A DNA stretch of 64,000 nucleotides from Bdellovibrio sp. (lineage in GTDB: Bacteria; Bdellovibrionota; Bacteriovoracia; Bacteriovoracales; Bacteriovoracaceae): positions 186,001-250,000 of the forward strand of contig JACPIU010000010.1 of the NCBI GenBank assembly GCA_016187935.1, in the 5' to 3' direction. Shown here one piece after another: positions 22,443 to 49,197 of the stretch (positions within the stretch are counted from its first letter, which is position 1; the number at the start of each line of letters is the position of its first letter). The position numbers were made by a program, and so were the translations under genes. The notes below the pieces were generated by a model that saw only the letters and a program-made list of their open reading frames with translations, was not told the origin of the DNA and ran no database searches.

Positions 22443-24656
22443 TTATGGCCGAGGGCAAACCCGTGCTGGTCTTACCATCTCTAACAAATGGCGCCGATAG
22501 AGAACATTACAGGCCGCTGTATTACCTGCCATGGTTGAGTTATTACAGCCAGTGGCCCCGTCTTCTCCAACCGGATGAGCGGGATAATAATCGGCCACAT
22601 ACTCATCAGCGAGACCTAAATTATGGCCAGTCTCATGCATAATAGTATGGTCGTTCATGGCGGTAGTAAAGCCACCTGCATCCTGCCAATCGCCGTACAT
22701 GCGCGTAGGAACTCCTCCCTGCATCTTATACCAACACCGATGGGGGTCCCAGGCGCTTCCGGGGAAATCGGTCGGGAAAGAGCTGGGCATGACACGGTAA
22801 TAACATTCAGAAACATTGACGACGGGTGGAGTTGTGTTGGTGCAACCTATGCACTTTTCAATTTTAAACGTCACTTTAGGATCGGCAACCGCGCCGGCGG
22901 CGCTGTTCAGGAAGGCGGTAGACTTTTGCGTCCATGCAGTGGTGTTAGCATTAAATTCAGCTTCTTGTTGAGCTCTGGTTTTTCTGTTTGCCTCCGGAAC
23001 TGCTGCGTTACCTAAGTAGCCCGGACTGCCCGGACTAATAGACGGGTCAAAGTTGAAGACATAATTGATTTTAGTGGCAACTTCCAGTGTTCCATTGGGC
23101 AATGTTTTAATGGTGTAATTGGAACTACTCTGAAAAGGAAAGCCATAATTTACGCGTTTGACTTTCATCCCTTCGCTGCTGGCCGGGTCGCCGGTTACAC
23201 CGGGTGCGCAATCCAAAGTTTGATCATCGGCCTGAAATTGACTCATGATTCCCTTTTGGCACATCAAACGTGTGAGGGCCTCCCGAGAGCGGTCATTATT
23301 TTGATCTAATACAGCTTGTCGAACGGCCTGTGGTTGAAGCCGGGCAATGTCTGCCAAATTTCTTCGATCCTGACAAAATGTTGTCATGGAAACGGCAGCA
23401 TTCATTTCTTGTACATTTTTCATGTCGGTGGCAGCTTGGGATAATGCCGAGAAGGCATTGGCCATTCTGGGATTTGTCGCTGCTGTAGCACTTCGCCCTG
23501 TCATATGAGCAAAAGTGTAAGCCCCATCTGCATTACCATCACGGTTGGCATCGTTAGCGGTGACTATTAACGGGTAACCTTGATCACCGGTAAAGGCCGC
23601 ATCAACAGTTTTTTTACCTTGCTCAATTGCGGCGGCATCTTGATCAGAAACGGCACAGCCCGAACCTGAACCAGAGCCAGGACCTGTTCCAGCACCGGGA
23701 ATGGGGTTTGCAGCACCGTTGTATCCCATTAACTTATAAATAGATGATTCAAAACGAGTGTACGGGGTTGTTCCACAGCGTTCTAATCCTTCTAAGTTGG
23801 CGGCAAAGGTTTTCTGCTCCCAAAAAGTTCGATCAGTATCATTGTTGAAGGATTCACTTTCTCTCAGACCCCCGGCAAAAACAGAAGGAAAGGCCAAGCG
23901 CATGCGATCGCGGTTGCGGCGAATGCTCATACATTTACGAGGAATACCTACGGCCGGGGGACATTCACGTTTTTGCGCTTCTCCCAATTGCTTATCGAGT
24001 AAAAAGGCTTGGGCCATGCGATTGCTATCAAAGGATTGGCGGGTGGCACGCAGTTTTATCGCCATCAGATGCCTTCGTTTTAGATCTTCTAGGTTGCGTT
24101 TTTGTTCCGCTGTTCTTGAAGCTTCATTAATATTTGTGATGGCCTTTATCTGATCGGCCAAAGTGCGAATATGGGCATTAGTTTGGGCAACAGTCATACC
24201 TTTAATTGCTTCAATATCAGTTTTCATCTGTTGCGCCCTGGGGCTCGAAGCGATACAACTTGGCAGGTTCCAGGTGTTGGAAGCCGGACTGACGGCCGCT
24301 CTTTGCAAAATCATTTGTTCATAAGCATTGTCGAGCGCCAAATTGGTGAATGCCGCTTCAAAATTATTGCCTGCCAAGCTATAGGCAGCATCAAGACTGC
24401 TATTTCTCGGTATACAGAATGTCATACTGCCAGAGGCCGTGGGCCTTGGGCATTCCTGCCGAAAGAGTGAATCGGCTTCAACTTCACTGGAGGCATTGAG
24501 CCACCCATAGCCGGCCCGATTCTCCTCTACACTCCCCGGAATAGGGGCCACAACATCGACAGGTGGGCTGTTTGTGTGGGCCATTGTTTCAAGAGTTATT
24601 AATGTGGAAAATACTAATAGATACGATTTCAATAATCTTATTCTGAATATTGGCAT
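22443..24656 (-). CDS. Large secreted zinc metalloprotease with C-terminal HExxHxxGxxD motif
   Basis: This 737-aa protein has a signal peptide (about 26 residues). The protease motif HETGHNLGLADEY is at about residues 674-686, close to the C-terminus, and a Met-turn-like NNSTMAG follows; HExxHxxGxxD is the snapalysin-type metzincin ligand set, with Asp as third ligand. The 600 residues before it are mostly helical with a Gly/Ser/Pro linker (GAGTGPGSGSGSG near 330) and many cysteines, and match nothing I know. GAGGGG precedes the ATG. It is upstream of, and likely co-expressed with, the exported protein at 21541. Confidence 0.82.
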   Translation of the reverse strand: MPIFRIRLLKSYLLVFSTLITLETMAHTNSPPVDVVAPIPGSVEENRAGYGWLNASSEVEADSLFRQECPRPTASGSMTFCIPRNSSLDAAYSLAGNNFEAAFTNLALDNAYEQMILQRAAVSPASNTWNLPSCIASSPRAQQMKTDIEAIKGMTVAQTNAHIRTLADQIKAITNINEASRTAEQKRNLEDLKRRHLMAIKLRATRQSFDSNRMAQAFLLDKQLGEAQKRECPPAVGIPRKCMSIRRNRDRMRLAFPSVFAGGLRESESFNNDTDRTFWEQKTFAANLEGLERCGTTPYTRFESSIYKLMGYNGAANPIPGAGTGPGSGSGSGCAVSDQDAAAIEQGKKTVDAAFTGDQGYPLIVTANDANRDGNADGAYTFAHMTGRSATAATNPRMANAFSALSQAATDMKNVQEMNAAVSMTTFCQDRRNLADIARLQPQAVRQAVLDQNNDRSREALTRLMCQKGIMSQFQADDQTLDCAPGVTGDPASSEGMKVKRVNYGFPFQSSSNYTIKTLPNGTLEVATKINYVFNFDPSISPGSPGYLGNAAVPEANRKTRAQQEAEFNANTTAWTQKSTAFLNSAAGAVADPKVTFKIEKCIGCTNTTPPVVNVSECYYRVMPSSFPTDFPGSAWDPHRCWYKMQGGVPTRMYGDWQDAGGFTTAMNDHTIMHETGHNLGLADEYVADYYPAHPVGEDGATGCNNSTMAGNTAACNVLYRRHLLEMVRPARVCPRP

Positions 24657-27105: not shown

Positions 27106-28485
27106 ATGAAACGAAATGTGATGTTTGGGATTGTGCAATTTCTCTTGATTATTGCATCAGGTTTTACCTTCGCCGCCGAGAATAAATTCTATGGGGACGT
27201 GGCGCGTGAAGCCCGGCTTACTTTCCAGGGCGAAATTGAAATCAAGGGCAAGAGTCCCGCGACCTTGGAAGAATTGAAAAATAATTCGCGGGTTTCTCGT
27301 TGGGTGCGGGAAAAAATTGACGGACAACTGCAACACATCATCGGATATTTTCAGGCCGAGAGTTTTACCGAGCAATACAAATCAAAAGCTTCTTTGGATG
27401 ATAACTATCGCATTAAATATACCGAGGTTAAAAAATCTTCCGGGAAAATTGTGGTTTCATATCAGTATCGCGGCAAGGCGGTTTTTGATAAAAAACTTTT
27501 TGCTCGCCGTGATCGAATCAAAATTGATATCAAGTTACCGCGCAACCCTGACACTATTTATGCGCTTGGTGTGGTCAACGATGAGAATCGTTGTACTGAT
27601 GAACATTACAATTCCGAGGGGGATTTCTTTTATTTCTGGGATGTGGAACTTCCCGGTTGTCCTCTGCGTGGTGGTCATCCAGCCGTTTTGGTGGCACAAG
27701 CTGAAGCGGAACTATTGCCTGTCACCGATCGCACCTATCCTGAGTATGACAAACTTTACTCCGGCAAAAAACATGCTTTCATTTTCATTGGCTACCTGGA
27801 CGATGAAATTTTGCCCAATCGTGTAAGTCGTCGCGATGCCGCTTACCAGATTTTCAAAGATGTGTCGCAGTGGTTGCCCACTCTCAACTTGAGAAAGGTA
27901 AAAGAATTGGCCAATGTGAGTGGTGATATCCTGGCCGGCAGGGGAGAAACTTCCCGAGGGGGCAATCTTTATCAACGTTATGAGGGTGTGGTGGAAACCA
28001 GTTTAGGCACTGAGGTCGAGTGGAATGTGCACGTTCTTCTGGCGGATACCAGTTCAAGTAGTGAAGATGAGACCTTTCGTATCATGTACGCTCGCGCCTT
28101 AGAAACCGGCTCACTGGTCGTCTACGACGGGCACTCAGGACTCGGCGGTAATTTGGCCTTGGATATCATGCCGGAGTTCGATTTTGATAAAATGGACTAT
28201 CAGATCATTTATTTTAACGGTTGCAGCAGTTATCCCTATTTTAAAACACCATATTTTAAGGCCAAAGGTGGATCAAAAAAGCTGGATATTGTGACCTCCG
28301 GTCTGACCACTTTTGACACGACCGCATTTGGAAATATGCAGGCCTTTCTTTATTCATTCTTGGCCGGTAAAACTCCCAGCTATCAGAAAATAATGAAATG
28401 GGTCGAGGAGTCAAATGGCGGAGAGGGCACTTACCTGACATCTGTCAATGGAGACGATGACAATGTGTGGCTTCCTGCCAGGTAG
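27106..28485 (+). CDS. Exported protein with a possible clan CD-type cysteine peptidase core
   Basis: This 459-aa protein has a signal peptide (about 24 residues) and GAGGAG 7 bases before the ATG. The C-terminal third shows two hydrophobic strands ending in VVYDGHSGLG (His343) and IIYFNGCSSY (Cys373), spaced as the His-Cys dyad of caspase/gingipain/CHAT-like (clan CD) peptidases. The N-terminal two thirds are unrecognised, with a strand-rich FIFIGYLDD segment. The peptidase role is an inference from the dyad and its strand context; the protein could also be inactive. Confidence 0.7.
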   Translation: MKRNVMFGIVQFLLIIASGFTFAAENKFYGDVAREARLTFQGEIEIKGKSPATLEELKNNSRVSRWVREKIDGQLQHIIGYFQAESFTEQYKSKASLDDNYRIKYTEVKKSSGKIVVSYQYRGKAVFDKKLFARRDRIKIDIKLPRNPDTIYALGVVNDENRCTDEHYNSEGDFFYFWDVELPGCPLRGGHPAVLVAQAEAELLPVTDRTYPEYDKLYSGKKHAFIFIGYLDDEILPNRVSRRDAAYQIFKDVSQWLPTLNLRKVKELANVSGDILAGRGETSRGGNLYQRYEGVVETSLGTEVEWNVHVLLADTSSSSEDETFRIMYARALETGSLVVYDGHSGLGGNLALDIMPEFDFDKMDYQIIYFNGCSSYPYFKTPYFKAKGGSKKLDIVTSGLTTFDTTAFGNMQAFLYSFLAGKTPSYQKIMKWVEESNGGEGTYLTSVNGDDDNVWLPAR

Positions 28486-28552: not shown

Positions 28553-29608
28553 ATGGTCTTTATGAAGCTCAATTGGTCCCTGGTTTTGGCCGGTATAGTT
28601 TTTTTTGTCCTTCCTCTTTTCTCAGATGATCAGGTCCAATCGCAAAGTTACTTCTTTGACGATACTCCGGTCTATGAGGTCAAAGCGTGGCCGAAGCAGT
28701 TATCGGTCTTGAGCTATAACACTTTTGGCATGTGGTTGGGGCCCATTCATGTTGGCAAACATTGGCCGGATAGATTACCCCGTATCGTGCAGGCCCTGCG
28801 CCAGACCAATGCTGACGTCGTCCTGTTGCAAGAATTATGGCGGGCCAAAGATCGTCGCTATATCCGTGAGGCGTTGCAGGTTCAGTATCCGCATATCGTC
28901 AGCAGCGGTTGGCATGCCACTTCTCTTCCCAGCACCATTGGGCTCAAAAATATCATTGGGGGAGGCCTGATGGTTCTCTCCAAATATCCCTTTTATGCCC
29001 CTGCCAAATTTCGTTCGTATAAGGCCTATACCGCCCCTGAAGAGTATTTTGCAGGCAAAGGGCTACAAGTGGTACCGATCAGCGTGGGCGGCAAGCTCTT
29101 TGCCTTTGCACACACCCACTTGGGATCATCGCATTTCGATTCCGACACCAATGATTTTAAACCCAAGCAAATTCGTCGCCATGTGAGACAGATTGAAGAA
29201 ATGGGACAAATGATGGCGGATGCCCGTCGTGGCTTTGAGGAACGCGGATTGCGACCTCATTTCATTCTTGCCGGGGACTTGAACTGCCCCGAACATTTTT
29301 GGAATGCCGCTCAAGACGCCTACGAGTTTGATCGTCCCTCGTATTGTTATCCATCACTCGATCCGAACAGTGAATTGCTCGATACATTCCGTCTGCTCAA
29401 TTTCGACGATTTGGGTTACACATCGGCCGATGGAAATCCTTATCGTTCGCTTGATGAACCCGCTGCCCGTCTCGACTATATCTTCAGTGATGTCAATCCG
29501 CGAGTGATTCCCTATTCATCAGAAATGGTTTTTAAAGATATTCAGTCATCCCCACCATGGGCCCTGTCCGATCATTTCGGCGTGCTCACGCGTTTCTTGC
29601 TGCTTTAA
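28553..29608 (+). CDS. Exported endonuclease/exonuclease/phosphatase-fold protein (sphingomyelinase-like)
   Basis: This 351-aa protein has a signal peptide (start at 28553 or the Met 3 codons later). It has EEP superfamily motifs: LSYNTFG (metal Asn), LQELW (metal Glu), AHTHLGS, ILAGDLNCPE (catalytic Asp/Asn), RLDYIF and LSDHFG (catalytic His). Export plus THLGS-type spacing favours a neutral sphingomyelinase or phospholipase-C-like phosphodiesterase over a DNA enzyme. It is the first gene of a probable operon: the oxidoreductase gene starts 27 bases later. Confidence 0.85.
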   Translation: MVFMKLNWSLVLAGIVFFVLPLFSDDQVQSQSYFFDDTPVYEVKAWPKQLSVLSYNTFGMWLGPIHVGKHWPDRLPRIVQALRQTNADVVLLQELWRAKDRRYIREALQVQYPHIVSSGWHATSLPSTIGLKNIIGGGLMVLSKYPFYAPAKFRSYKAYTAPEEYFAGKGLQVVPISVGGKLFAFAHTHLGSSHFDSDTNDFKPKQIRRHVRQIEEMGQMMADARRGFEERGLRPHFILAGDLNCPEHFWNAAQDAYEFDRPSYCYPSLDPNSELLDTFRLLNFDDLGYTSADGNPYRSLDEPAARLDYIFSDVNPRVIPYSSEMVFKDIQSSPPWALSDHFGVLTRFLLL

Positions 29609-29635: not shown

Positions 29636-31051
29636 ATGAGTCTTGCTAAGGATAGCAAAAAAGACTTCGATTTTATCGTGATAGGGGCAGGGATTTCCGG
29701 CCCGTTCGTCGCCCATGAGCTATGTAAAAAGGGCGCCAGCGTATTGATGCTCGAAGCTGGTCCCCATTTCAACCGCGACACTTATCCCTGTAAAGAAATT
29801 GACTCCAACTCCCAGCTCTATTGGGGAGGCGGAATCGAACTCAATACGGATGCCGATCTTGGGATCTTGCGACCTAAAGTGGTGGGGGGCGGAAGTATCG
29901 TCAATCAGGCCCTGGTTGATCGCTTTGATAAAATTGCCTTGGATTCTTGGAAGGAAGTTTCAGGCGCAGATTTTTTTAACCAAGAAAAATTGGCCCCTTG
30001 GTACGACGCCGCCGAAGCTGAGTTGGCCATTCAGGAAATCCCGGCCAAATATCGCAATGGCAATGCTCTCATTTTTAAAGAGGGATTTGAGAAAAATGGT
30101 TTTAATTGGGCACCCCTGATTCGCGCTCAAAAAGATTGTCGCTTTGACGATGGCAACGATTGTATCGAATGTCTCAGTGGTTGTCGGATCGATTCAAAAC
30201 AAAGCACCCCGGTTACCGTGCTCAAGCGCGCTTTTGAACTAGGTCTGGTGCTGGAGTCTCAGTTTGAGGCCAAGACTGTTCGTTGGACCCCTGAAGTTGT
30301 GACTGTGATGGGTGTGAATCGCTATGGCGAACATAAGTCCTATCGGGCGAAAAAAATTGTTCTGGGCGCCGGGGCCATTGGAAATTCCCGTCTGCTGCTC
30401 AACTCGGGATTTAAAAAGAGCTTGCCCGCATTGGGACGGAATTTTTATTCTCATCCTCAATCCATGTTGCTGGGACTTTATGATCGACCTATTAATGCCC
30501 ATAAAGGACCGTTACAATCACTCAAGAGTAACGATGCTACTTTCCGCGCCAACTACTTCAAGTTAGAAAATGTTTTTGCTCCACCTGTGGCCATCGCCAT
30601 GTTGGTGCCCGGTCTTGCCCGGCGCCATTTGTCCGTGATGAAGCGCTATGCTCATATGGCCTGTGTTGAAGTGGCAGTACGGGATACCAATCCCGGTGAG
30701 ATTTCGGTGGCAAGCAGTGGTCGAGCGCGGGTCTTTAAGCGTTTAAATAGTTTTGATCGCGACACCCAGGCGAAAGGGTTTAAGGCCATTCATCAAATCT
30801 TCAAAGCAACTGGTGTGCGCGAGATTGTGGATGGACGTTTTTCTATCGGACTACATCTGATGGGGGGATTAAATTTAGGCACAGACCCTGTTCGTTCTGT
30901 GACGTCACCTGATTTTCATCTCCACGGTTATAAAAATATTTACTCTGCCGATTCCAGCATTTTTCCCAATGCTCCCGGAATTAATCCCAGCTTGACAATT
31001 ATGGCCATATCCAAGATGGCGGCGGCAAAAATTATTCAACAAGCATCTTAA
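29636..31051 (+). CDS. GMC family FAD-dependent alcohol oxidoreductase
   Basis: This 471-aa cytoplasmic flavoenzyme has the dinucleotide-binding IGAGISGPF at about residues 16-24, the VGGGSIVNQ loop, and the C-terminal GMC signature: GLHLMGG, then YSADSSIFPNAPGINPSLTIMA, where the His and Asn are the catalytic pair. Overall it resembles cholesterol oxidase and long-chain alcohol oxidases. A CIECLSGC cluster lies near 180-187. Strong SD AAGGAGG precedes the ATG. The next gene, 20 bases on, encodes an aldehyde dehydrogenase, so alcohol to aldehyde to acid conversion is likely. Confidence 0.9.
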   Translation: MSLAKDSKKDFDFIVIGAGISGPFVAHELCKKGASVLMLEAGPHFNRDTYPCKEIDSNSQLYWGGGIELNTDADLGILRPKVVGGGSIVNQALVDRFDKIALDSWKEVSGADFFNQEKLAPWYDAAEAELAIQEIPAKYRNGNALIFKEGFEKNGFNWAPLIRAQKDCRFDDGNDCIECLSGCRIDSKQSTPVTVLKRAFELGLVLESQFEAKTVRWTPEVVTVMGVNRYGEHKSYRAKKIVLGAGAIGNSRLLLNSGFKKSLPALGRNFYSHPQSMLLGLYDRPINAHKGPLQSLKSNDATFRANYFKLENVFAPPVAIAMLVPGLARRHLSVMKRYAHMACVEVAVRDTNPGEISVASSGRARVFKRLNSFDRDTQAKGFKAIHQIFKATGVREIVDGRFSIGLHLMGGLNLGTDPVRSVTSPDFHLHGYKNIYSADSSIFPNAPGINPSLTIMAISKMAAAKIIQQAS

Positions 31052-31071
31052 ATATTGAAGTGAGTGTAAAA

Positions 31072-33186
31072 ATGGAAACAATAGTTAATAAGCTCGATTC
31101 CGCAACTCATGTGAAAGTCCCCGGAAATTTGGACATGCAATATTGCGAGAATCATCCGGGACCTTCCACCATGATCGCAAAAGTTCCCTATCCATTGGCC
31201 CAAGGCAAGAGAGAGTTTATTTCAAAACATTTATCTTCTCTGGCGATTGGCGGAGTAATGCGAATAGGTGAGGTTTTATTGCCCGGCGAAGGCGAAAAAT
31301 TCCCCGCCTTTAAAAACACCGATTTTATCAAACACATTGACCGCATGTTGGACTTTATGGAAAAAGAGGACTTGGACGGACTCAAGATTCTCTTAACTTT
31401 TTTAGGCATTATGCCTAATTTTGTAACTCTCTTTATCTTGTGGCTTTCCGAGAAGGATCAGTCTTTTCCCACTTTGCTCGGAGCCCCTTTGCGTATGATC
31501 AGCATTGGCCTGAAAGGTATGATTTTCACTCTCTACTATTCCAATATTGAAGATACCGAAGGCAAAGGTGAAAAAATCCATCACAACATCGGCTACAATG
31601 CCAAGATTGTGAAGAAGGAACAAAACCTTCCCAAGTTCCCTGAGACGGTTGTGCCTTCACTTAATCAGTTACCCAATTTGGTAAATCCAAATGTCGAGGA
31701 TATCGCGCATATTTATCTGCGTGCCAAACAAGGGGAAGCCGATATAGGCCGAATGAGTATCACTCAGCGCTTAACTTATATCGCGGCATTAAAGCGCGTT
31801 ATTTTGAATCGCCGTGAGGAAATTATTGATATCATCCAGCGCGATACTAAGAAGGCCAGAACCGACGCTCTGGTTTCTGAAATTTTTTCCATTTTGGATC
31901 ACCTGGATTTTCTCTTGAAAGCCGCCAGGAAAGGTCTTTCAGATATTCATGTTAAAACACCCGTGGCCTTGATGGGAAAAAAATCTCGCGTGTTTGTGGA
32001 ACCGATGGGCACCATCTTGGTTATTTCTCCTTGGAACTATCCCTTCTATCAAGCCATTGTCCCGATTACCACGAGCTTTGTGGCCGGCAATGCCACCATT
32101 TATAAACCTTCAGAATACACCCCGCTCACGGGTTTGGTTGAGCAGATTTTAGATGAGTCGGGTTTTAATAATTATTGGGTTCAAGTGGTCTATGGCGATG
32201 GCAAAGTCGGACAGAATCTTATTGCCGCCCATCCTGATAAAATTTTCTTTACCGGTTCTGTGGCCACCGGTCAGAAGATTATGAGTATGGCCAGTCAACA
32301 ACTTATTCCGGTCGAGCTGGAGTTAGGTGGCAAAGATCCTATGATAGTCTTTGAAGATGCCAATATCGAGCGTGCTGTGAGTGGTGCTCTATGGGGGGGC
32401 ATGACCAACACGGGACAGTCTTGTACGGCGATTGAACGCCTCTATGTGCACTCATCAATCTATGAAAAATTCCGCGAGCTTCTGATTTTCAAGGCCCGTC
32501 AGCTCACCCAAGGGCAAGATTTGGAAGGTGATTCCGATATGGGTCTCATGACCACCGAGATGCAAGTTGCGGTGGTGAAAAAGCACCTTGATGAGGCCAA
32601 ACAATTGGGCGCCAGGGTTGAAGTGGGGCTGGATTGGGATGGCCTGAACGCTAAGATTCCTCCCATCATTCTTGATAATGTGAGCGACAACATGGCAATC
32701 TGGCGCGAAGAGACTTTCGGCCCTGTGCTCCCTCTCATGCCTTTTGATGACGAAGCAGAAGTCATTCATCTCGCCAATGATTCCGAGTATGGACTATCCG
32801 CCAGCGTTTGGAGTGGCGATACTGAACGTGCCATCAGAGTGGCAAGACAGTTGAAAACTGGAAATGTCTCAATCAATAACGTTATGGTTACAGAGGGCAA
32901 TCATTATCTGCCGTTCGGAGGTGTGAAAAAGAGTGGCATTGGCCGATACAAAGGTGTCTGGGGGTTACACGCCTTCTCAAACTTGAAGTCGGTGGTGATA
33001 GATGCGAACAGTCCTAAAATTGAAGCCAATTGGTATCCTTATAGCAAGACTAAATATCAACTCTTCTCAAAATTGTTAGATGGCCTTTATAAGTCTGGGC
33101 CTAAGGCCTTGTTGGGATTTGTGGTCAATGGACTCAAGCTGGAAATGTATTCCAACAAAGTGGGAAAAGATTTTACCAAGCGCTAG
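31072..33186 (+). CDS. Aldehyde dehydrogenase with an extra N-terminal domain
   Basis: This 704-aa protein is about 220 residues longer than a usual ALDH. ATG at 31072 is preferred; a GTG 4 codons earlier is possible. The ALDH domain starts near 215 and has VISPWNYPFYQ, FFTGSVATGQK, ELELGGKDP and catalytic Cys in TGQSCTAIE. The first 170 residues (LLPGEG, HIDRMLDF, then MIFTLYYSN and IGYNA) resemble the small helical domain that accompanies GMC alcohol oxidases (gluconate 2-dehydrogenase subunit 3-like). This suggests a fusion in which the domain docks the GMC enzyme encoded just upstream and hands over its aldehyde. Confidence 0.88.
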   Translation: METIVNKLDSATHVKVPGNLDMQYCENHPGPSTMIAKVPYPLAQGKREFISKHLSSLAIGGVMRIGEVLLPGEGEKFPAFKNTDFIKHIDRMLDFMEKEDLDGLKILLTFLGIMPNFVTLFILWLSEKDQSFPTLLGAPLRMISIGLKGMIFTLYYSNIEDTEGKGEKIHHNIGYNAKIVKKEQNLPKFPETVVPSLNQLPNLVNPNVEDIAHIYLRAKQGEADIGRMSITQRLTYIAALKRVILNRREEIIDIIQRDTKKARTDALVSEIFSILDHLDFLLKAARKGLSDIHVKTPVALMGKKSRVFVEPMGTILVISPWNYPFYQAIVPITTSFVAGNATIYKPSEYTPLTGLVEQILDESGFNNYWVQVVYGDGKVGQNLIAAHPDKIFFTGSVATGQKIMSMASQQLIPVELELGGKDPMIVFEDANIERAVSGALWGGMTNTGQSCTAIERLYVHSSIYEKFRELLIFKARQLTQGQDLEGDSDMGLMTTEMQVAVVKKHLDEAKQLGARVEVGLDWDGLNAKIPPIILDNVSDNMAIWREETFGPVLPLMPFDDEAEVIHLANDSEYGLSASVWSGDTERAIRVARQLKTGNVSINNVMVTEGNHYLPFGGVKKSGIGRYKGVWGLHAFSNLKSVVIDANSPKIEANWYPYSKTKYQLFSKLLDGLYKSGPKALLGFVVNGLKLEMYSNKVGKDFTKR

Positions 33187-33195
33187 GACTGGTCC

Positions 33196-34434
33196 ATGCA
33201 TAGCTACAATGTATTGAAGAGATTGGCGCAGAATGTGGCCGTGCCTGCCATGTTTGTTGATCTGGATGTTTTTGATGCCAATGTACATGCATTGGCCAAG
33301 ATCTGCAGGGACTCTGGTAAAACCTGGCGACCGGCGACTAAATCTCTGCGCGTCCCGGCACTGTTTAAGCGCTTGCAAAAAATCGCCGGAGAAACTCAGA
33401 AAGGTTGGATGTGTTTTTCCATCTTTGAGGCCAGCTATCTTCACGCCCAAGACCCTAAAATTTTTAACGATTTATTGATCGCCTATCCGATCAGCACCGA
33501 ACCTGAATATGAAGAGGCCTTTAAACTTTTAGAACGGGGATGTAATTTCCATTTGATGATTGATTCTCCCGCACACGTCAATGAACTATCTGCCTTCCTG
33601 CGGAAAAAGAGTACCAATGATAAACGAAGTTTCCATTTTCAGGTTTGTATCGATGTGGACATGAGTTGGCGCCCTCTGGGACTGTTCCATTTGGGCGTTT
33701 ATCGTTCACCTGTCCGAACGATTGCGCAATTTAAAGAAATTTTCTTGGAGGCGCAAAAGAGCGACTTTGTTCTCCTCACTGGCGTCATGGGTTACGAGGC
33801 CCAGATCGCCGGCCTTCCCGATTGTAATCGTTTCAATCGTTGGCAAAATCCTATAAAATCTCTCATTCGTTCTTTTTCAAAAAAGCATGTCCTCAGATGG
33901 CGTGCCGAAATCGCCCGGTTCCTGGATACCTATAAAGCGCGTTTACGTTTCTTTAATGGCGGCGGGACCGGCTCTTTTGAATTTGCCGCTCACGATCCCT
34001 CACTGAGTGAAATTACCGCAGGCAGTGGGCCTTTGCAGTCACAACTCTTTGACTACTATTGTGAGAACACGGCAAAAAAAATCTTGCGACCGGCGCTTTT
34101 TTTCGCTTTGCCCGTATGCCGAATTCCTGACCATAAAAGAGTGACTTTGAAGAGCGGAGGCTTCGTGGCCAGTGGCGAAGTGGCACCAGATCGCTACCCC
34201 TCTCTCTATCGTCCAGAAAACGGCAGAATAATTGGCAGTGAGGGTGTGGGAGAAGTGCAAACCCCTTTATGCGTGCCCGATTCATCGATTTACAAGCTGG
34301 GTGATCCGTTCTTTTTTCGTCCTGCCAAGGCCGGTGAAATTGCCGAACATTTCAATCACTATGTTCTTTTTCGTGATCAAAAAGTGGAAGAAATTGTGCC
34401 CACATATCGAGGACTTGGGCTTAATTTTTTCTAA
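33196..34434 (+). CDS. Fold-type III PLP enzyme, D-threonine aldolase/amino acid deaminase-like
   Basis: This 412-aa protein has an alanine-racemase-type N-terminal barrel: VPAMFVDLDVFDAN, then RPATKSLRVP with the likely PLP lysine, DVDMSWRPLG, GYEAQIAG and the phosphate-binding GGGTGSFE. The C-terminal domain resembles the D-threonine aldolase/deaminase family. The gene follows the ALDH gene by 9 bases and closes the four-gene run. The same enzyme type occurs near FAD oxidoreductases in some actinobacteria, but a pathway cannot be named here. Confidence 0.82.
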   Translation: MHSYNVLKRLAQNVAVPAMFVDLDVFDANVHALAKICRDSGKTWRPATKSLRVPALFKRLQKIAGETQKGWMCFSIFEASYLHAQDPKIFNDLLIAYPISTEPEYEEAFKLLERGCNFHLMIDSPAHVNELSAFLRKKSTNDKRSFHFQVCIDVDMSWRPLGLFHLGVYRSPVRTIAQFKEIFLEAQKSDFVLLTGVMGYEAQIAGLPDCNRFNRWQNPIKSLIRSFSKKHVLRWRAEIARFLDTYKARLRFFNGGGTGSFEFAAHDPSLSEITAGSGPLQSQLFDYYCENTAKKILRPALFFALPVCRIPDHKRVTLKSGGFVASGEVAPDRYPSLYRPENGRIIGSEGVGEVQTPLCVPDSSIYKLGDPFFFRPAKAGEIAEHFNHYVLFRDQKVEEIVPTYRGLGLNFF

Positions 34435-34533: not shown

Positions 34534-35190
34534 ATGATCAGATTATTTGTATCAGTATTGTGTTTAGGTTTCGCGTCCGTATCTTATGCTGGAACTTATT
34601 TTGATAAACTCTCAAGCACTGAGCAAAACCAAGTCTTATCTGAGGCCAAACAACTGATTAAATTGCAGGATGTCGCTGGTAAACCCTGGCCACAAATCAC
34701 ACTTTTTCAATGGTCCGATGGCACCCCTGAACAGGTGTGTGGAGTGTTTTCTGATTTCAATTTGCAAAAAGAATATATGGGAGAAGACATGCTTAAGTCT
34801 CACGCACGCAAAATTTCCCAAAATACCTACGAGGTGGACTATGAGATGGATGTTCCCGTAGTGAGTAATGAAATCTATACCGTCAAAGATGTTCTTACGT
34901 CATATGATAGTGGTCATAGTTACATGATCTCATGGAGTCTTGTGAAAGCAACTCGTACAAAGCTAAGCAATGGTTTTTTTGCTTGTGAACCAGTCTCTGG
35001 CGGTACTTTTATGGCCTATCAAAATTTGGTTGATCCTGGCATGCTTGGCAGATCATTCTTCGAACAAGCTTTGGTAAAAGTGAAGGCGGTACCTTATTCA
35101 GTTCTCAAGCAACTAAAAAAAGAATTGGGTTCCAATCCGGTCCAGCTTGATAAGCAGATCGAATTTTTGCGATCAGCTGTTGCCAAATAA
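34534..35190 (+). CDS. Exported START/SRPBCC-like protein
   Basis: This 218-aa protein has a signal peptide (MIRLFVSVLCLGFASVSYA) and a strong SD, GAGGGGGG, before the ATG. Residues about 60-190 follow the pattern of a START/polyketide-cyclase-like fold: EQVCGVFSDFNLQKEYMGE, then paired strands YEVDYEMDVPVVSNEIYTV, ending in a long C-terminal helix. It could bind a lipid in the periplasm. It is not clearly part of the preceding operon (99-base gap). Confidence 0.68.
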   Translation: MIRLFVSVLCLGFASVSYAGTYFDKLSSTEQNQVLSEAKQLIKLQDVAGKPWPQITLFQWSDGTPEQVCGVFSDFNLQKEYMGEDMLKSHARKISQNTYEVDYEMDVPVVSNEIYTVKDVLTSYDSGHSYMISWSLVKATRTKLSNGFFACEPVSGGTFMAYQNLVDPGMLGRSFFEQALVKVKAVPYSVLKQLKKELGSNPVQLDKQIEFLRSAVAK

Positions 35191-46574: not shown

Positions 46575-47131
46575 TCATTTCGTCCTTTTAAATTTCCCAT
46601 GGCATCCAGGGCAAGATTGAGTTTTAATACATTGACTCTTGGTTCACCAAGAAAGTTCCATTGCCGTTTTTCTATCGCGTCAACAATCATCTGACTTAAT
46701 TGTATCGCTTGATTCTCGCTGAAGTTTCTTTGATTAGCAATTCTTGTAATTTGATCATGGGCGGAACTAGGGGATATATGCGGATCAAGTCCACTGCCCG
46801 ATGAAAAGAGCATCTCATTAGCAAATCCCTTGAGTTTTCTTTCCATGATGACTTTTTTGAGTTCCCCTGATGTAACACATAAATTGGTTGCGCCTGTTTC
46901 TACAGGTGAATAATTGCTCGCTGAAGGCCGGCTGGAAAAATAACCGAGGGCCGTAAAATTTTGTCCGATAAGCTCTGAGCCAATGACGAGATTCCCTTGA
47001 TACAAAAGACTGCCATTGGCCTTGTCCGAAAAAGCCGCTTTTGATATGGCGGTGATGCTCCAAGGATAAAGAATACCTGTGAGCAAAGTCATAACAAAAA
47101 ATAGAAGGACACCCGGTAGAAGAGTATTCAT
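46571..47131 (-). CDS. kdpC: Potassium-transporting ATPase subunit KdpC
   Basis: This 186-aa protein has one N-terminal membrane span followed by a periplasmic domain with the family motif [12 protein letters not shown] and GYFSSRPSA. KdpC assists nucleotide binding by KdpB and stabilises the complex. It overlaps kdpB and kdpD by ATGA and TTGA respectively. Confidence 0.95.
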
Positions 47132-49197
47132 ACAAGCCTCGCCGCGACTAAAAACATATCAATGAGTTTGATACCAAAAAATGGTGCCACAACACCGCCA
47201 AGCCCATAGATTAATAAATTTCGCCAGAGAAGAGCATTGGCGCCGATTGGGCGATATCGAACGCCTTTAAGCGCAAGTGGAATAAGCATAATAATGATCA
47301 ATGCATTGAAAACGACAGCACTCAAAATAGCACTCTGAGGAGAGTGAAGATTCATGACATTGAGTTTTGCCAAGGGCCCGACATTGGCATTTGCCAGATA
47401 TAGCGTCGCAAAAAGTGCAGGGATAATAGCAAAATATTTCGCCACATCGTTGGCAATGCTGAATGTGGTGAGGGCACCCCGGGTCATCAGTATCTGCTTT
47501 CCCGTTTCGACAATTTCAATAAGTTTTGTAGGATTGCTATCAAGATCAACCATGTTCCCTGCTTCCCTCGCTGCCTGCGTTCCCGTATTCATGGCAACTC
47601 CCACATCTGCTTGGGCGAGAGCAGGGGCATCGTTTGTTCCGTCACCTGTCATGGCGATGAGATGGCCTTTGCTTTGCTCTTCACGAATTCTCATTAATTT
47701 AAGTTCTGGTGTCGCTTCAGATATAAAATCATCGACACCGGCTTCGGCCGCAATGGCCGCAGCCGTCAAAGGGTTGTCTCCCGTTATCATGACTGTTTTA
47801 ATTCCCATTTTGCGAAGTTCGGCAAAGCGTTCTTGAATCCCATCTTTCACCACATCCTTGAGATAGATCACTCCTAGAACACGTTCATCCTCAACAACGA
47901 CGAGGGGCGTGCCTCCCATTTTTGAAATTTGGGCGGCCTGATCTTGAACTTGTTGCGGGATTTTTTCGCCGAGTTCATGGATGTACTGTTGAATCGCTTC
48001 GAAAGCACCTTTTCTAATTCTGTGAAGGACGCCATTTAAATCGGTGAAATCAACTCCACTCATTTTTGTTTTGGCGGTAAAGGGAAGTGGTTTTGCCCGT
48101 TGACGGAACAAATCAGGGAGGGACATTTCAAATCTATTCTTTATCAATGTGATAATGGAGCGTCCCTCGGGAGTCTCGTCGCTCGAAGAGGCCATCATTG
48201 CTACTTGAGCTAGATAATCAATCATCACATCTGGTGCGGTATAAAGTTCACTGGCCATCCGATTCCCCAAAGTGATGGTTCCGGTTTTATCAAGAAGAAG
48301 AACATCAATGTCACCGGCGGCTTCAACCGCTCGACCGCTTGTTGCGATAACATTTTTTCGGATCAGTCGGTCCATTCCGCTGATCCCTATGGCGCTCAAA
48401 AGACCCCCAATGGTTGTTGGAATGAGACAAATTAAGAGCGCAATCAAAACTGGTACTGTCACAATTTTCGATAGGTCTTCACCTGAGGCCTGACTTGAAT
48501 AATCTGAGAATCCCTTGAGTGTTACAACGGTTAATAAGAGAATGATGGAGAGACCGGACAGGAGAATGTTTAATGCGATTTCGTTCGGGGTTTTTTGTCT
48601 TTTTGCGCCCTCAATAAGATGGATCATCCTATCAATAAAAGTATTTCCTTGTTCGGATGTGATTTGAATAACGATTCTATCACTTAAAACCCTCGTCCCG
48701 CCAGTTACCGCACTTCGATCACCACCACTTTCTCTTACAACCGGTGCCGACTCGCCTGTAATGGCCGATTCATCAACGGTGGCTATCCCTTCAACAACTT
48801 CTCCATCTCCAGGAATCATGTCTCCGGTCTCACAAACCACGAGATCATTTTTTTTGAGAGAACTTGCATTTATTTTCGTTTCTTTTCCATCTTTAAGAAG
48901 TCGTGCCATTGTATTTGTTTTTGCCTTTTTTAGGAAATCCGCCTGGGCCTTCCCACGTCCCTCAGCAATAGCTTCTGAAAAATTGGCAAAAAGAACTGTG
49001 AACCATAGCCAAATGGCGATTTGAATATCAAAGATTAAATCCTCTGAACTTTTAAATGCGATAATCGTGGTTATCACCGCACCAAGAAGAGTTATAAAAA
49101 TCACGGGATTCTTGAACTGTGATCTAGGATCGAGTTTTATAAAACTGTCTCCAATGGCCTTAAAAAATATTTTCCTTTCAAACATAGAGGCCTTCAT
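47128..49197 (-). CDS. kdpB: Potassium-transporting P-type ATPase subunit KdpB
   Basis: This 689-aa catalytic subunit has the TGES loop (ITGESAPV), phosphorylation Asp303 in LLDKTGTIT, the nucleotide-binding KGAFEAI, and the hinge [16 protein letters not shown]. It couples ATP hydrolysis to K+ movement through KdpA. SD GGAG lies 6 bases before the ATG. It overlaps kdpC by ATGA. Confidence 0.96.

Follow-up and report, generated by a model that had tools for sequence, protein, structure and literature searches.

A protein of 704 residues that joins a small N-terminal domain (NTD) to an aldehyde dehydrogenase (ALDH) was identified directly downstream of a gene for a GMC-family flavin adenine dinucleotide (FAD) oxidoreductase in a Bdellovibrio sp. 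genome. The DNA analysed, referred to as the window, was a stretch of 64,000 nucleotides (contig 1, positions 186001-250000) of the 4.4 Mb host genome, G000. That the NTD is a partner subunit of the GMC enzyme is well supported by the gene evidence. We consider it likely on balance that this small GMC partner, fused through a linker to the ALDH, makes the GMC enzyme and the ALDH one alcohol-to-acid complex. In the proposed mechanism the NTD, joined by a flexible linker to the ALDH, would dock on the GMC enzyme encoded upstream. The GMC enzyme would oxidise an alcohol to an aldehyde, with the electrons leaving the FAD via an iron-sulphur (Fe-S) cluster, and the tethered ALDH would convert the aldehyde into the acid before its escape. 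The physical docking of the NTD and the handover of the aldehyde by proximity are what we infer; as hypotheses, docking, channelling and a sphingoid-base substrate are supported in that descending order. An amino-alcohol or sphingoid-base pathway with an adjoining pyridoxal phosphate (PLP) aldolase-like enzyme is the likely setting, held with lower confidence than the complex. A first-pass annotation of the window had described a GMC gene adjoining an ALDH gene with an extra N-terminal domain, and this arrangement was confirmed by the open reading frames and by Pfam. The features concerned are:

29636..31051, + strand: GMC-family FAD oxidoreductase P0002, 471 aa (Pfam GMC_oxred_N/C), proposed Fe-S alcohol dehydrogenase
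30137..30184, + strand: cysteine loop of the GMC enzyme with C168, C176, C179 and C183 (conservation and alignment)
31072..33186, + strand: NTD-ALDH fusion, 704 aa, start ATG 31072; GTG 31060 is an alternative start (708 aa)
31072..31212, + strand: fusion residues 1-47, predicted disordered (predicted local distance difference test, pLDDT, <50)
31213..31590, + strand: NTD, six-helix domain, residues 48-173, putative distant relative of Gluconate_2-dh3 and proposed GMC docking subunit
31600..31659, + strand: NTD-ALDH linker, residues 177-196, predicted flexible (pLDDT <50)
31690..32994, + strand: aldehyde dehydrogenase domain PF00171; Cys451 and Glu417, numbered on the 704-aa protein, do not vary among the 33 fusions aligned
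33046..33180, + strand: two C-terminal ALDH helices, residues 659-703 (AlphaFold2 model)

The listed open reading frame of the ALDH starts at GTG 31060 (708 aa) and ends at 33186. The ATG start at 31072 coincides with the first residue (query residue 5) matched by L002, a relative of 90% identity. The closest relative of the host genome in the species collection was Bdellovibrionales bacterium GWA2_49_15 (ALDH 90% identity). An Aldedh match of 8e-123 was found in Pfam over residues 211-645 of the 708-aa reading, and Cys451 and Glu417 are presumably the catalytic Cys and Glu of the ALDH. Fold matches listed for the model of the whole fusion were ALDHs, the top ones mostly betaine aldehyde dehydrogenases. 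No match was obtained for residues 1-207 alone in Pfam (E <= 1) or NCBIfam (E <= 0.1), and the full-length fusion gave a single chance-level match to Orbi_VP2 (residues 162-256, E 0.22). Modelled alone with AlphaFold2, the NTD formed six helices with a mean pLDDT of 86.5; in the full-length model the ten-residue blocks between residues 51 and 170 had pLDDT values of 81-95. The predicted template modelling score of 0.69 for the full-length model fits two separately folded units, NTD and ALDH, that would have no fixed mutual position. The NTD is a genuine domain and not a chance reading frame, as 35 fused and nine split relatives were found.

The NTD was found to follow the GMC gene and not the ALDH. 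Loci were sampled by taking 80 of 241 relatives, picked by ALDH similarity. The NTD was present in 44 of these 80 loci, fused to the ALDH in 35 and encoded on its own, in a frame of 133-170 codons, in nine, the fused relatives coming from Bdellovibrionota, Desulfobacterota, Chitinibacteraceae and others. A GMC gene was located directly upstream of the NTD on the same strand, at a distance of 2-169 nt, in 44/44 loci, and none of the 35 fused relatives lacked a GMC neighbour. Since the 80 loci had been selected by ALDH similarity, a survey of 191 Bdellovibrionota genomes was the fairer test. The NTD profile matched 16/191 genomes and the GMC enzyme of the window, used as query, matched the same 16, with a clear gap below: 15 genomes were matched at E <= 7e-101 and one, G153, in which the gene is truncated where the contig stops, at 62% identity, and the next GMC protein was a paralogue in the host genome itself (E 2e-35, 30% identity). 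The Fisher p value of the joint occurrence was 1e-23, with kinship ignored. The GMC gene adjoined the NTD in 16/16 carriers, and the NTD was fused to the ALDH in seven and stand-alone in nine. Because 9 of these 16 NTDs are stand-alone, the constant partner of the NTD is the GMC enzyme and not the ALDH; among the nine genomes, two have an adjoining ALDH gene on the opposite strand. Stand-alone copies adjoining GMC genes ruled out reading the first 170 residues as a plain ALDH extension. The partnership with the GMC enzyme, as claimed in the first-pass annotation, was thus borne out.

Beyond the Bdellovibrionota sample, the NTD was found in 13 of the 21 genomes behind the chosen loci, and in 2/297 genomes from the phylum to which G206 belongs; G206 itself is among these two and was already counted in the 13. 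A GMC gene was present in all 14 NTD-bearing genomes of this outside set; of the eight chosen genomes without the NTD, only G204, with a rearranged locus, had one. The genome sample is partly redundant, as G155 and G198 yielded identical places. Two observations weigh against the proposed complex. In a Bacteroidia genome, G200, the NTD and the GMC gene lie on different contigs, and 8/52 close relatives of the ALDH had no nearby NTD, at least three of these loci being truncated or rearranged. The G200 genes (L114; NTD at C1:85779-86165, GMC at C39:53355-54716) were the sole unlinked stand-alone pair seen, and the neighbours of the NTD were, by eye, glutamine-synthetase-like and repeat-protein genes.

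The identity of the NTD was studied with a profile built from 38 sequences (alignment A1), which share 23-42% identity with the NTD of the window, the near-identical L002 excepted. This profile was compared with one of Gluconate_2-dh3 (PF13618) built from 23 sequences, L082 having been dropped for its uneven flanks. The hidden Markov model (HMM-HMM) comparison gave a score of 36.0 (P 2.7e-5, probability 75%), against a maximum of 20.6 for 200 column shuffles and 11.8 for the reversed alignment. The PF13618 profile scored at most 20.1 with 15 unrelated families encoded in these neighbourhoods and 34 with the sixteenth, which is the ALDH cluster containing the fused domain. The similarity extends over approximately 100 columns and is strongest in the N-terminal half, around the motifs 'GD.I.PG' and 'IDRM'. 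It had been claimed that the N-terminal 170 or so residues resemble gluconate 2-dehydrogenase subunit 3, and the profile search of this region did reveal similarity to a family of GMC partners, although a distant one. From its sequence, the NTD is fairly supported as a distant relative of Gluconate_2-dh3 and was filed as not a member of PF13618.

Several results speak against this relationship. Single-sequence matches to PF13618 at E <= 10 were obtained for only 4/38 NTD members (best E 0.016), fewer than the 5/38 that matched an implausible ATPase family. The curated Pfam cut-off of PF13618 was not reached, and the NTD of the window itself gave no match to the family. No fold match to the NTD model was obtained with Foldseek and VIA-align at E <3 or Z >2.8; this is weak evidence, as a profile of five PF13618 sequences had no matching chain in PDB either. 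The NTD profile had no match in PDB. A PF12318-type hitchhiker was also considered for the NTD and rejected, as the HMM-HMM score of 14.4 was inside the range of 100 shuffles (up to 17.2); a PF12318 sequence matched the small subunits of fructose dehydrogenase and BcGDH in PDB. Elsewhere in the host genome, on contig 23 (L001, ~46976-48836), a GMC gene is accompanied in the ordinary way by a gene for a PF13618 small subunit of 188 aa; phmmer with the fused NTD did not detect this subunit.

The GMC enzyme matched GMC_oxred_N (1.4e-30) and GMC_oxred_C (1e-14), both above the Pfam cut-off, and no signal peptide was seen on it by eye. Its best PDB match was the large subunit of fructose dehydrogenase (E 1.2e-13), an enzyme with a small subunit, as seen from the PDB match to the PF12318 sequence. 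C168 was kept in 62/62 and C176, C179 and C183 in 63/63 sequences, and the latter three are aligned to cysteines in the large subunit of fructose dehydrogenase. Because of these four near-invariant cysteines, three of which match the Fe-S loop in fructose dehydrogenase, the GMC enzyme is probably a dehydrogenase rather than an oxidase, and the alignment suggests an Fe-S cluster. The label 'oxidase' given in the first-pass annotation is therefore doubtful, the cysteines lying about where FAD-dependent dehydrogenases have their Fe-S loop. No multihaem cytochrome c was recognised with Pfam and NCBIfam among the six window proteins scanned. In BcGDH, such a cysteine loop is described as holding a 3Fe-4S cluster with the small subunit packed beside it, and the small subunit as required for folding and secretion (PMC6719666). 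By analogy, the BcGDH arrangement suggests the loop as a candidate docking place for the NTD.

The same description speaks for a different function, in which the NTD would be a chaperone that folds the GMC enzyme and protects its cofactor by covering the Fe-S cluster, while fusion to the ALDH fixes expression and stoichiometry and no aldehyde is handed over. Stand-alone NTDs without an ALDH in the short loci examined agree with such a role, and that a gene fusion can serve the expression ratio only counts against the proposed complex. The chaperone function would however not explain why, in the loci examined, the fusion was always to an ALDH expected to use the product of the GMC enzyme, nor the presence of the fused form across several phyla, and we consider it rather improbable compared with the alcohol-to-acid complex.

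Besides the fused GMC-(NTD-ALDH) arrangement, several other gene orders were found. The order GMC-NTD-ALDH as separate genes was seen in L030, L040 and L053, the order ALDH-GMC-NTD in L041, L042 and L045, and a convergent ALDH gene in L038, L039 and L050. The origin of the fusion was studied on a tree of 45 ALDHs of known state, 16 rows without the NTD, some of them truncated, being excluded. The state changed between fused and split at least three times on this tree, and a single fusion origin was not rejected (approximately unbiased test, p-AU 0.425). An earlier test that included the 16 rows rejected a single origin; this result was not relied on. An apparent triple GMC-NTD-ALDH fusion (G267) and an NTD-GMC fusion (G197) were discarded, the long frames being read-through of an overlapping frame. 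In L052:4743-7107 (Desulfotignum) the GMC and ALDH frames run together and the NTD region is gone, through deletion or assembly error. A contig of Pseudomonas sp. QS1027 (L178) encodes a close relative of the ALDH but neither an NTD nor a GMC enzyme; further ALDHs and an aldolase-like gene were found in this region and, by eye, monooxygenase- and reductase-like genes.

The genes around the GMC-fusion pair, which had not been considered in the first-pass annotation, were examined for indications of the substrate. Three of them lie on the same strand:

28553..29608, + strand: EEP-family hydrolase P0005, neutral sphingomyelinase-like (Exo_endo_phos 2.3e-14)
33196..34434, + strand: PLP fold-III protein P0003, Ala_racemase_N, weakly similar to D-threonine/D-hydroxyaspartate aldolases; proposed to perform an aldol cleavage step
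34534..35190, + strand: START/polyketide-cyclase-like protein P0004, possible lipid binder (PF10604 E 0.0066, under cut-off)

The aldolase-like gene, the sphingomyelinase-like gene and the neutral ceramidase genes of relatives point to a substrate. P0003 scored 23.5 bits with PF01168, just under the cut-off of 24.1, and 3.6e-9 with BhcC in NCBIfam, far under the cut-off. Its PDB relatives were weak, namely D-serine dehydratase (4.7e-4) and D-hydroxyaspartate and D-threonine aldolases (0.003-0.03). Lys49 was invariant (56/56) and located in the lysine region of 3anu. D-Threonine aldolase-like PLP enzymes carry a metal-binding His and Cys/Asp at the C-terminal end; in the sequence alignment, the corresponding end of P0003 has a stretch with invariant K378, G380 and E381. 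A relative of P0003 was present in 29/44 NTD loci and in 2/36 other loci. On two actinobacterial plasmids (H5 and H7) the region similar to P0003 coincides in part with genes that are annotated as alanine racemase and D-arabinono-1,4-lactone oxidase, the latter perhaps another FAD partner for the aldolase-like enzyme. SMPD2, a neutral sphingomyelinase, was the sole PDB match of P0005 (E 7e-8), and the match of P0005 to TIGR03395 (2.3e-6) was far under the cut-off.

Neutral ceramidase (PF04734) was found in 9/44 NTD loci, the copy of L039 matching at 2e-97, and in 0/36 loci without the NTD. The nine loci represent few lineages: four are from Chitinibacteraceae and the others are L004/L005, L038/L039 and L050. 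The gene order in G067 and G147 was aldolase-like, ceramidase, ALDH, NTD, GMC. In G117 and G203 the ceramidase gene adjoins the aldolase-like gene, on a contig separate from that of the query ALDH/GMC or with none of these found. Among the Bdellovibrionota genomes, PF04734 was matched in 9/16 NTD carriers and 25/175 others (Fisher p 3e-4, kinship ignored). A search for SphD relatives via PF14031 gave matches in 6/7 Pseudomonas genomes, but these were other genes, located, where this could be read by eye, beside sugar-kinase-like genes. Two further genes of the window were noted. Just 5' of the operon, at 27106-28485 on the + strand, a 459-aa protein is encoded for which Pfam and NCBIfam gave no convincing match, and at 22443-24656 on the - strand a 737-aa protein, predicted to be secreted and with an HETGH motif seen by eye in the translation, is possibly a zinc protease.

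It is tentatively suggested, with less than even confidence, that the cluster is a phosphate-independent route for sphingoid-base breakdown. A neutral ceramidase or another source would free the sphingoid base, the C1-OH of which would be turned into an aldehyde by the GMC enzyme; the NTD-docked ALDH would then yield a 2-amino-3-hydroxy fatty acid, and aldol cleavage of this acid would give glycine and a fatty aldehyde. By our own derivation, C1 oxidation of (2S,3R)-sphinganine would give the (2R,3R), D-allo-threonine-type acid, which would fit the expected preference of a D-specific fold-III aldolase. Fusion of the partner domain would prevent the release of the amino-aldol, which is highly reactive. 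The absence of a PF04734 match in the host genome, and of ceramidase genes from the flanks examined in the Desulfobacterota NTD loci, weighs against a sphingolipid setting. Bdellovibrio (Bacteriovorax) stolpii is described as having both a serine palmitoyltransferase and a sphingolipid with an unusual phosphonate head group (PMC6148460), and turnover of own lipids is therefore as possible as the use of prey lipids.

An ordinary long-chain alcohol or a sterol could also be the substrate, the signs of sphingolipid metabolism being coincidental; this would compete with the sphingoid base and leave the docking untouched. The GMC enzyme has a weak NCBIfam similarity to cholesterol oxidase, and the Desulfobacterota loci fit such substrates as well. 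This explanation, which we find doubtful, accounts neither for the PLP aldolase-like gene in so many NTD loci nor for the SMPD2-like hydrolase and the uneven distribution of ceramidase genes. Finally, that the N-terminal domain has no relationship with the small subunits of GMC enzymes and serves oligomerisation or membrane attachment of the ALDH, as its failure to match any family in Pfam or NCBIfam or any fold might suggest, is very improbable and largely refuted by the copies encoded as a separate gene right after the GMC gene (9/44 loci, 9/16 Bdellovibrionota carriers), together with the profile link to PF13618.

Small GMC subunits are known as helpers in secretion and folding, and here a relative has apparently become a module for docking the enzyme that acts next in the pathway. 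Such a module on an ALDH would be a natural design for handing over a reactive aldehyde, and the stand-alone NTDs of sister lineages offer a ready-made control. If a sphingoid base is the substrate, the cluster would provide concrete and testable chemistry for bacterial sphingosine breakdown. No description of an NTD-ALDH fusion was found among the entries listed for the open-access literature searched for the combination of subunit and ALDH, for sphingosine together with threonine aldolase and for bacterial sphingolipid degradation.

Like Gluconate_2-dh3 (PF13618), the NTD is a small helical protein unit encoded beside a GMC flavoenzyme, with profile-profile similarity to that family; it differs in scoring below the family cut-off and in its fusion to an ALDH. 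A twin-arginine export signal is a trait of many PF13618 members, whereas no twin-arginine pair was seen by eye in the first 60 residues of the fusion. BcGDH and fructose dehydrogenase share with the present system a GMC cysteine loop aligned with the Fe-S site and a small partner subunit. Their complexes consist of a GMC catalytic subunit, a PF12318 hitchhiker and a cytochrome c; the NTD of the window has no PF12318 similarity, an ALDH is attached to it, and no cytochrome c was recognised in the operon genes scanned. BetA and BetB, choline dehydrogenase and its partner, likewise act in sequence, a GMC enzyme oxidising the alcohol before an ALDH takes over, and the top fold matches of the ALDH model fit this parallel; the GMC enzyme and the fusion protein however score far under the BetA/BetB cut-offs, and neither a PF13618-like domain nor such a fusion is known in that system. 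AdhE-type fusions also couple alcohol and aldehyde dehydrogenase steps. In these, two enzymes are fused, whereas in the window an enzyme is fused to the presumed accessory subunit of another enzyme.

The system closest in its proposed chemistry is SphBCD of Pseudomonas aeruginosa, which also combines a flavin-dependent oxidoreductase with a PLP aldolase-like enzyme. In the published passages on that system, SphB and SphC are periplasmic, a cytochrome c is present and an ALDH is not mentioned. For SphC/SphD, a comparable scheme of two steps that does not include the acid has already been put forward (PMC3900636), and sphBC are reported to be needed for sphingosine metabolism, the product being stated there as unidentified (PMC11893366). 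By comparison with the SphC/SphD proposal, the new elements would be the reaction of the ALDH and the physical link between the ALDH and the enzyme that oxidises the alcohol.

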